Below, piece by piece: positions 44,038 to 46,646 of a stretch of 64,000 bases of DNA. The notes beneath the pieces are model-generated. The model was not told the DNA's origin and made no database searches. It saw nothing but the letters and a program-made list of their open reading frames with translations. This stretch comes from Polytrichum commune (Eukaryota; Streptophyta; Polytrichopsida; Polytrichales; Polytrichaceae). Position 1 is the first letter of the stretch, and the number at the start of each line of letters is the position of its first letter. Where the stretch lies: the NCBI GenBank assembly GCA_950295325.1, contig OX485803.1, forward strand, positions 23,312,001 through 23,376,000. Reading direction: 5' to 3'. Position numbers and translations under genes: made by a program.

Positions 44038-46196
44038 CTATAGCAAGTCGTCATATGCAACGATTGGACGTCCTCTGAAACTTCCTTGATCCATATGTCC
44101 TGGTGGCAAGTCGCCAGCAAGTACTGCATGGGCCTTCGCAGCAGCCGCTGCGGTGGCTGCAGCTAAAACTGAAGGTTTAACCACACCTTTCCTTGATCTA
44201 TTTCGACCCAATAATGAATCTTTTCCGGGAGCCACGGTAAATCCTCCAATGCCCTTCTTCCACTCTGGTAGTGATCCGAGTGCCCAAGACACGTAAACCT
44301 ACAGAAATGTGTAATTCCAGGTTAGAGCATGTCAATATAAAATCCTCAAACCTTACAATCCAATTCAGATCTCCAAAGACTAAAATTCAACGATTGAACG
44401 ACGTGAGTATGTCTACATACTAGAGGTATCAAAGTGTCTGAGAAGTTACTATCAGATTACACCCAGTAAAAGAGGTGCTGTCAGCGAAACTTCCATATTG
44501 CTTTATGCCTCCCATGAATCAGACAAGCATTAAATGTGCAAGGCTGGGATTAAAAAGAGGCTACCTACATAGCAATGAGAAACCTTAAAACCCTCTACCC
44601 TAAATCCCGAATGATAATGAGAAATATCACATTCGAGATGTCTGAGAAGTTACTATCAGATTACACCCGGTAACAAAGGTGCTGTCAGCGAAACTACCAG
44701 TTTTCTATCTGCCTCCCATGAATCAGACGAGCATTCGTTGCGCAAGGCTGGGATTAAGAAAGGCAACTGACTTAAGCGCAGAAAGAGACTTCCACAACAC
44801 TAACTAAACTATTAAACTCCGAAGCCCAGAATACATGTGTGACCAGTTGCTATCAGATTACACCGAGCAAAGAAAATGCTGTCAGCGAGACACATACATT
44901 GTATATATGCCTCCCATGAATCAGGCTATACTATTTATGGTGGTGTTTAGTGTCATGTTCAATATTTGCCTAAACTAGATACCTAGAGGTCTCAATAATT
45001 AACAACTTCTAGGCGAAAAAAAATTATGACATTTAGAGAAGCACATTAGTGTACAAGGGGAATATATTTTTGAGCGTACTATGACAAGTTTTACGTGCAC
45101 TTTAGTAAACTTGTAGAGCATTGTGTAACATTGCATTGCATGCAACATTGAATGCTAATTGTGGTGGGGTCACGCTTACGTTGAAGTTATTAATCATTAG
45201 TTCGACCTAGCATACGCCTCAAACTAGGACATGTGGCACTATACACCATAAACGGTGTAGCATTTTTAAGAAAGCTGAGGTTTCGACAAAAAGGCAAACT
45301 AAGCTAAACCAGCACAACGCCTATAGTTTTGATACTTGATAATGTCTGAGAAGTTACTATCAGATTACACCCAGTAAAGAAGGTGCTGTCAGCGAAACTT
45401 CCAGTTCTCTTTATGCCTCCCATGAATCAGACGAGCATTCGCTGCGCAAGGCTGGGATTAAGAAAGGCAACTGACTGAGCGCAGAAAGAAAACCCTCTAC
45501 CAAAACCATGAACATTTGACCCTTCCTTAACCCCAAACCATAAACCCCAAACATGGACCCTCTGCTAAGATAATAGAAGCCATAAACTCTCTGCTTCTGT
45601 CTCACCTGCTTGTTGCTCAGTAAGTCGATTCCATCCTGACGCTGCCCCGCAGCAATGGCAGCTTCCGCAGATTCCCGCTTATCGAAAGTCACAAACCCAT
45701 AGCAATGATCATCCTTAATCTTGGCAGTCAACACATTCCCGAACTTCTTGAATAACCCTGTCAATTGCTCCGCTGTGCTTGACGGGTCCAGATCTCCAAC
45801 GAAGATGGTACACGCCTGCTTCTCCCTCTCCTCAACACGCTTCTTCTTCCTATCCGTGCTCGCTAAGCTGTCGAATGCGGGATCCCTGCTCCTACTGCCA
45901 CCGCGGTGCCCCCTTCTGTGCTCCTTGCGACGCCTGTCCCCGTCCTCGTGGCCTTCGGATGATTCCCTCCAAGGCCTGTCCAAGGACGAGCCCCTATCTC
46001 TCCTTCTGCTATCCTCTTGCTGATGCCTCGGATGCCTCTCTCCCTCATCGTCATGGCTGCTGTCCCTTCGCCTGTCCCTTGGGGGCCTCTCCTCGCCTCC
46101 ATCGTGACTCCTTTCCCTGAACCGCCTTGGAGCGCTCTCTTCCCTTTCCTCCCTCCGTGTGCCGCCGTCGGAGTCTTTCCTCTCATCCGCCTCCAT
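44038..46196 (-). CDS. RRM protein with Arg/Asp/Glu/Ser-rich N-terminus; snoRNA host gene
   Basis: Two exons on the minus strand, 46196-45606 and 44298-44038, join in phase at NKQ|VYVSWA to give 283 aa. Residues 1-125 are a charged, low-complexity RS/RD/RE/RH region, as in splicing-related proteins. A single RRM spans about residues 128-205, with RNP2-like TIFVGDL and RNP1-like CYGFVTF. The tail (PEWKKGIGGFTV, then an Ala run, ending YDDLL) is not a domain I can name. Probable role is nuclear RNA binding; the precise orthologue is not recognised. The 1307-bp intron carries four H/ACA snoRNA-like copies on the same strand and a MITE. The promoter has telo-box repeats. The start is the first Met of the frame, followed at once by the charged region. 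Confidence 0.9.
44432..44562 (-). ncRNA. H/ACA box snoRNA, intronic copy A
   Basis: On the minus strand the 5' hairpin is closed by GCCTC/GAGGC. A hinge with an H-box match AAAGCA follows. The 3' hairpin is closed by GAAGTT/AACTTC, with CAG-CACC pairing GGTG and CTG (bulge TAAT), and ACA lies 15 nt after the inner stem at 44437-44435, near the 3' end as the class requires. Target unknown. It is the copy nearest the 3' splice site. Confidence 0.75.
44636..44765 (-). ncRNA. H/ACA box snoRNA, intronic copy B
   Basis: It is nearly identical to copy D in the 5' hairpin and to A and D in the 3' guide pocket (CGCTGA and ATAG sides unchanged). H-box candidates are AGAAAA and ATAGAA. The ACA box is at 44641-44639. 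The outer 3' stem has one changed pair (GTAGTT against AACTTC). Confidence 0.72.
44833..45300 (-). pseudogene. H/ACA snoRNA copy C, split by a MITE
   Basis: The 3' half (44833-44924) keeps the guide pocket (CGCTGACAGCA, GGTGTAATCTGATAG) and an ACA 15 nt from the inner stem. Its outer 3' stem is weakened (CAACTGGTC). The 5' hairpin breaks off after CCCATGAATCAGG on the plus strand and seems to resume after 45260 with diverged AAGAAAGCTGAGG...AAAGGCAAACT. The 336-bp insert between is a MITE. It is probably non-functional. Confidence 0.6.
44925..45260. mobile_element. MITE inserted in snoRNA copy C
   Basis: The ends CTATACTATTTATGGTG and CACCATAAACGGTGTAG are inverted copies, extending into TTTAGTGTCATG and CATGTGGCACTATA. 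It is 336 bp and non-coding. Interior blocks (AGATACCTAGAGGTC, GAATGCTAATTGTGG) resemble the sequences at 8765 and 51915. The target duplication is unclear. Confidence 0.7.
45340..45469 (-). ncRNA. H/ACA box snoRNA, intronic copy D
   Basis: The structure is as in copy A: base stem GCCTT/GAGGC with one U-G pair, an H-box match AGAGAA, a 3' hairpin closed by GAAGTT/AACTTC and an ACA box at 45345-45343. It lies about 136 nt from the 5' splice site. Similarity to copy B extends beyond the RNA (AACTGACTTAAGCGCAGAAAG-like flank), which points to segmental tandem duplication. Confidence 0.75.
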
Positions 46197-46368: not shown

Positions 46369-46646
46369 ATATATAAGTTGAGGGCGGTAAAGGAAGTGGA
46401 AAGAGGGAGAGGGAGAGGGTTTAGGGTTTAGGGTTTAGGGTTTAGGGTTTAAGGGTTAGGGTTTGGTGGGAGCCTGGCCCTAAAAGTGAAGAGTCTGACG
46501 GGTATTGACGTCTAGGCGTTTGGGGTTTTGTTTGACGGGTGGTGAAGGGCATACATGGGCTAAGGATCGGTTTACACTAGGGTCGAACACCACAAAAGCT
46601 TCAAAATCGAGCAACCTTATTGGTTGAGGATATAAATTTTGGCCCA
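46369..46646 (-). promoter_or_regulatory. RRM/snoRNA host promoter: TATA, telo-box run, site II-like motifs
   Basis: On the gene strand a TTATATAT element lies at 46376-46369. Upstream, at 46465-46417, is a run of about six plant telomere units (AAACCCTAAACCC on this strand, i.e. repeated telo-boxes). TGGGCC occurs on the gene strand at 46646-46641 and TGGGCT on the plus strand at 46556-46561. Telo-box with site II is a known promoter combination of plant ribosomal protein and snoRNA genes. The outer site II-like motif lies inside the MITE that starts at 46564. Confidence 0.7.

Follow-up and report, generated by a model that had tools for sequence, protein, structure and literature searches.

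The minus strand of the 64,000-nucleotide stretch of Polytrichum commune DNA analysed here (the window) carries a gene for an RRM protein whose predicted intron contains snoR83, a known H/ACA snoRNA of plants, arrayed as three intact tandem copies and a broken one. The host gene is laid out as follows:

45606 to 46196, minus strand: host coding exon 1, with its ATG at 46196, encoding a charged Arg-rich N-terminus and an RRM (Pfam PF00076, E 5.8e-13; translation)
44299 to 45605, minus strand: predicted host intron, 1307 nt, GT...AG, containing all copies (frame continues over the junction)
44038 to 44298, minus strand: host coding exon 2, encoding 86 aa followed by a stop codon (translation)
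46370 to 46646, minus strand: putative host promoter with a TATA-like motif at 46375, five telo-boxes at 46422-46464 and Site II-like motifs at 46561 and 46646 (motif scan without chance control)

The predicted intron begins with GTGAGA and ends with CTGTAG, and the frame stays open across it to give a host protein of 283 residues by exon coordinates, of which the portion encoded by exon 2 has no Pfam match. An earlier note on this DNA, made from its letters, had placed the units in an intron of a gene for an RNA-binding protein, and this is borne out since all copies lie in a predicted GT-AG intron of a minus-strand gene with a PF00076 domain. The telo-box (AAACCCTA) has 11 matches in the window, five of them in the putative host promoter (counts without chance control). 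In plants, promoters combining telo-box and Site II motifs are common to polycistronic snoRNA genes and genes for ribosomal proteins according to the accessible part of PMC4660826, from which the motif definitions are also taken.

A repeat search finds four minus-strand copies that are in register with one another and begin at 44434, 44638, 44835 and 45342. When the whole window is scanned with Rfam at curated cut-offs, three matches emerge, all of them on the minus strand and all to RF01227 (snoR83, an H/ACA snoRNA), which has a gathering cut-off of 40 bits. These matches are the cores of the three intact copies:

44432 to 44561, minus strand: snoR83 copy 1, intact, 130 nt, starting at the GCCU lower stem and ending 3 nt past the ACA; RF01227 70.9 bits (44432-44550); minimum-energy fold of two hairpins in which the 5' pocket is partly closed
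44636 to 44764, minus strand: snoR83 copy 2, intact, 129 nt; RF01227 66.5 bits (44636-44754); fold
45340 to 45468, minus strand: snoR83 copy 4, intact, 129 nt; RF01227 66.9 bits (45340-45458); fold

With E values of 2e-11 to 2.2e-10 the three matches are far beyond chance, and they agree with the H/ACA class and host strand that the earlier note had assigned. Its suggestion that the units may form an undescribed family is refuted by the same matches at 66.5-70.9 bits, and a new snoRNA family is ruled out. The covariance search that it had proposed, run here with Rfam, puts three of the four copies above the RF01227 cut-off, and the split copy (copy 3) reaches 25.6 bits at 44833-44946 under a loose threshold, below the 40 bits required. 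The claim of four units of about 130 nt holds as regards four copies in register, and the length of 129-130 nt is confined to the three intact ones. In a loose Rfam scan the best scores for RF01645 (ceN58) and RF01261 (snR82) are 26.6 bits and 18.7 bits (E 0.46 for the latter), both against a cut-off of 60, so that the units belong to neither family. Among the best candidates scored, a whole-genome search with RF01227 yields three intact places at this locus only, and a DNA search of the genome with one snoR83 unit yields four matches, all inside the host intron. These searches also bear on the worry that the unit might be a scattered or transposon-borne repeat, which is ruled out for the snoRNA unit, present at a single locus among the best candidates scored; it is the element inside the split copy that is dispersed. 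Apart from the proposals described below, which concern 25S target sites and a longer 5' end, the locus is ordinary, with a known family in its expected setting.

The fourth unit of the array, copy 3 by position, consists of two remnants on either side of this element, which splits its 5' hairpin:

44833 to 44925, minus strand: 3' remnant of copy 3, with the 5' hairpin end, hinge, 3' hairpin and ACA and one change per guide arm; RF01227 25.6 bits
44926 to 45259, no strand assigned: inserted dispersed MITE-like element of ~334 bp whose inverted ends are imperfect and whose borders are approximate; at least 58 further genome match rows, divergent in sequence
45260 to 45317, minus strand: 5' remnant of copy 3, aligning with the 5' arm of copies 2, 4 and 1

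The starts of the third and fourth copies are 507 nt apart, as against 204 and 197 nt between the other neighbouring copies. The middle of this spacer has at least 59 match rows in the genome including the window's own, some of which are pieces of one place, and among the matches listed, excluding the window's own, none starts before 45260 or extends past 44935. The ends of the element form an imperfect inverted repeat (without a control run), and the alignments of six genome copies overran both ends at 52-56% identity and do not fix the borders. The 3' remnant is 81% identical to copy 4 over 44835-44924. For the 5' remnant (45317-45260), alignments to the 5' arms of copies 2, 4 and 1 are equalled by 8, 17 and 42 of 500 shuffles, respectively, in the outer flank, and the result is weaker over the whole spacer (13, 36 and 152 of 500); joined together, the 5' and 3' remnants are colinear with copy 2, which none of 500 shuffled 5' parts equals. 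A MITE-like insertion very probably split this copy, which would now be decaying, and the locus presents conserved snoRNA copies next to a sister that a small transposon has disrupted. The 3' guides of copy 3 read ATAGC for ATAGT and, further out in the left guide, GTCTCGCTG for GTTTCGCTG, so the identical 3' pocket reported earlier for all four copies stands for CGCTGA (four of four) and does not extend to these two positions.

Judged by its fold, the intact unit begins 10-11 nt upstream of the Rfam model start, at GCCU. From this point the unconstrained lowest-energy fold shows two hairpins with a hinge between them and leaves the ACA unpaired in all three intact copies, and from shorter starts the lowest-energy structure lacks the H/ACA shape. 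The hairpin-hinge-hairpin-ACA fold that the earlier note had drawn for each unit is therefore retained for the three intact copies and lost for copy 3, which is deprived of its 5' arm and whose lowest-energy fold over 44835-44954, a span that includes part of the element, is not H/ACA-shaped. The parts of the unit are listed here for copy 4:

45456 to 45461, minus strand: 5' pocket, proposed left guide UUAAUC (target scan, fold)
45422 to 45426, minus strand: 5' pocket, proposed right guide UUCAU (target scan, fold)
45405 to 45410, minus strand: H box AGAGAA (motif, fold)
45390 to 45398, minus strand: 3' pocket, proposed left guide GUUUCGCUG, first three bases in the predicted lower stem (target scan, fold)
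45355 to 45359, minus strand: 3' pocket, proposed right guide UAGUA, last A in the predicted lower stem (target scan, fold)
45343 to 45345, minus strand: ACA box (motif, fold)

The lower stem of the 5' hairpin has seven pairs in each intact copy, formed by GCCUUUC or GCCUCUU with GGGAGGC, and the two lower-stem differences between copy 1 and copies 2 and 4 leave all seven pairs of copy 1 in place. The CAG/CUG upper stem of the same hairpin is complete in copies 2 and 4, and copy 1 forms AG/CU only. In the predicted folds four 5'-pocket guide bases of copy 1 pair across the pocket, four bases per guide arm of the 3' hairpin pair with each other in all three intact copies, and three hinge bases of copy 2 are paired with the 3' tail; as modelled, the pockets of these folds are not open. 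The stability of the units carries no evidential weight, because the folding energies of the full units are ordinary when compared with shuffles (z of -0.98, 0.53 and -1.15). The hinge match to the ANANNA H box, a loose motif, and the ACA close to the 3' end are present in all four copies, as read in the earlier note. In H/ACA RNAs the ACA lies 14-16 nt after the start of the right guide; here the 3' right guide starts 14 nt from the ACA in all three intact copies, and the spacing from the 5' pocket to the H box is 14 nt in copy 1, 14 or 16 nt in copy 2 and 16 nt in copy 4. Positions 1-129 of the RF01227 model are fully matched by the three copies, including the conserved CUGAUUCAuGgGAGGC, GuUUCgCUg and the ACA end. 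The model begins at AUCCCAG, within the left guide as read here, and pairs UCCCA with UGGGA, whereas the fold proposed here takes the 10-11 extra nucleotides on the 5' side and pairs GCCUUUC with GGGAGGC.

The intact units are 86-92% identical to one another, while their 60-nt 3' flanks are 49-51% identical and their 30-nt 5' flanks 50-52%, except for copies 2 and 4 (74%). Within the unit, none of the 25 guide columns varies among the three intact copies as against 16 of 69 other columns not assigned to any feature, a difference whose p value (Fisher p 0.004) is indicative only because the guide columns were picked after the targets. Stems vary in 4 of 27 columns and boxes in 3 of 9. The constraint on guides suggested in the earlier note is thus seen among the intact copies.

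Targets were scanned in L015, a 3101-base eukaryotic 25S piece (Rfam model 334-2671) that ends before the last part of 25S and is not this plant's own, and, as scan background, in sequences from a contig of the assembly, C22, namely its 18S, its 5.8S and the 5' portion of its 25S. The 3' site is present in L015 by choice because L015 was fetched with a pattern containing it, and both pairings described below had first been recognised, before the scans, in what we take to be the yeast 25S sequence. Numbering is anchored by setting the 5' site to yeast U2314, which makes the 3' site U2349; the two sites are 35 nt apart in L015, the same as from U2314 to U2349. When yeast numbering is transferred to L015, the expected base is present at 18 of 18 tested modified positions between 2220 and 2421 and at 19 of 23 overall, the four misses lying beyond 2619; positions 2258 and 2260 are taken as modified on our own assumption. 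The positions tested come mostly from Table 1 of PMC8307265, and 2220 from PMC8351944, both consulted in part.

When the pockets are fixed beside the CAG/CUG stems with one base of freedom per side, each pocket has two sites of at least 4+4 pairs, one of which is strong. The 3' pocket (left guide GUUUCGCUG, right guide UAGUA) pairs with UACUA-[UC]-UAGCGAAAC, the equivalent of yeast 25S U2349, in a match of 9+5 pairs with one G-U, where both sides of the pocket are shifted by one base away from the upper stem and the left guide ends in GCUG. This site scores 31.5 against 10 for the next, in all three intact copies, and none of 400 shuffled rRNA sets is as good. Ten of the 14 pairs fall within the predicted pocket and the other four use lower-stem bases and would compete with the lower stem. 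The search of rRNA for pocket complements envisaged in the earlier note returns one strong 3' site, the U2349 equivalent. Its exact pocket (left end CGCUGA, right AUAGU) has no strong site besides U2349 in the rRNA scanned, and its statement that the target is unknown can be improved upon, as the shifted pocket matches a known yeast pseudouridine site. The 5' pocket (left guide UUAAUC, right guide UUCAU) pairs with AUGAA-[UG]-GAUUAA, the equivalent of yeast 25S U2314, and in the fixed-pocket scan CAUGAA-[UG]-GAUUAA scores 27 against 15 for the next in all three copies, with 9 of 400 shuffled sets as good. Both target sites and the longer 5' end are new proposals that derive from sequence and predicted fold.

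It is possible, although we think it unlikely, that U2351 is modified through the 3' pocket, either in place of U2349 or in addition to it, with the guides GUUUCGC and GAUAGUA. This register is all Watson-Crick (7+7) and is the top of a free-position scan in all three intact copies, where it scores 34 as compared with 31.5 for U2349 and where 0, 2 and 2 of 60 shuffled sets score as high for copies 1, 2 and 4, respectively. Furthermore, four 25S fragments of the moss's own genome (L010 to L013) carry U at 2351, and yeast snR82 is listed for both U2349 and U2351 in the table of PMC8307265. However, the U2351 register consumes the G of the 3' CAG/CUG upper stem, which is paired in the lowest-energy fold of all three copies, while the U2349 register leaves one base beside the upper stem on each side like the U2314 register of the 5' pocket, and the same table marks 2349 with H and 2351 without. 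A rather doubtful alternative of another kind accepts the 3' pocket as proposed and takes the U2314 match to be chance, the 5' pocket having another target or none. The free-position scan of the 5' pocket speaks for it, as U2314 is not singled out (it comes second or third) and the result is not significant, the top score, which belongs to another site, being reached by 45, 43 and 38 of 60 shuffled sets for copies 1, 2 and 4; and even with the pocket fixed, the U2314 score is met by the 9 of 400 sets given above. Against this, U2314 is the sole strong site for the fixed 5' pocket, corresponds to an established pseudouridine of yeast and sits 35 nt away from the proposed 3' target, and the 5' guides are identical across the three intact copies.

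The observed family, copies, open frame over the intron, predicted fold and complementarity make it highly probable that the locus is a tandem snoR83 array in an RRM-gene intron whose intact copies guide 25S pseudouridylation at two nearby sites and whose fourth copy is broken. Expression, processing and modification, as read from the sequence, would then involve the intact copies being cut out of the spliced intron and the resulting snoR83 RNAs binding H/ACA proteins, after which the 3' pocket would guide pseudouridylation at the U2349 equivalent and the 5' pocket at the U2314 equivalent. The contrary view, that the copies are relics, that no unit yields a stable RNA and that the intron is a graveyard, could appeal to the one broken copy in four and to the ordinary fold energies, but the guides are invariant in the three intact copies while the 3' flanks have diverged, and no other genome copy able to do the job was found among the best candidates scored, which makes this view very improbable.

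On the preferred reading of two guided 25S sites, the proposed targets are shared with two yeast RNAs, the 3' pocket site with snR82 (25S Psi1110, Psi2349, Psi2351) and the 5' pocket site with snR86 (25S Psi2314), and both Psi2314 and Psi2349 are tabulated with H, for human conservation, in Table 1 of PMC8307265, of which part was consulted. The snoR83 units are not members of the snR82 family (RF01261, 18.7 bits against 60). Yeast snR86 is approximately 1000 nt long according to the accessible part of PMC2551606, compared with 129-130 nt here, and its sequence was compared through the Rfam scan, where no match of this kind appeared. We lean somewhat towards the view that snoR83 serves as a double guide, directed at two conserved 25S sites 35 nt apart, one 129-nt RNA as against snR82 and snR86 in yeast, and that the public model is truncated within the 5' guide, so that the second target would escape notice. 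A target for snoR83 was not found in print, and the parts of PMC9483110, PMC10281867, PMC8351944 and PMC7464842 consulted hold no matching position or snoR83 entry; one may exist in supplements or plant snoRNA databases. Domains IV and V of Arabidopsis 25S contain 13 mapped pseudouridines without a known snoRNA, as given in the part of PMC8351944 consulted. The guide assignment proposed for snoR83 is testable and could help to fill gaps among such guide-less plant pseudouridines, and automatic annotation would benefit from correction of the 5' end.

The genome itself has 11 places that match the 25S query piece. In the main match of each of five loci, L010 to L014, which are rDNA fragments and not demonstrated functional genes, the 5' site CAUGAAUGGAUUAA is intact in four (L010, L011, L013 and L014) and altered in L012, and the 3' site is preserved as far as GCGAAA in L013 and truncated in L014, while L010, L011 and L012 each show a single altered base in it. 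L010 and L011 (both on contig C4) each contain two successive, differently decayed pieces of one 25S region, about 100 bases apart and with similar flanks, the second pieces being more decayed than the main match. A 5.8S search of the genome leads to contig C22 (L006) and to one 5.8S copy on C5, around which no further rRNA match occurs within 8.1 kb. C22 is 20 kb long and carries an rDNA unit in which part of the 25S reads N; its 5.8S is one that we take, by eye, to look non-plant-like, and the contig is possibly a contaminant. Pieces of the 25S 5' end also occur head to tail with a 129-base spacing at C7:20710528-20711003, C3:37920934-37921151, C3:29713948-29714165 and C2:44077343-44077689, an arrangement that resembles an rDNA-derived satellite.
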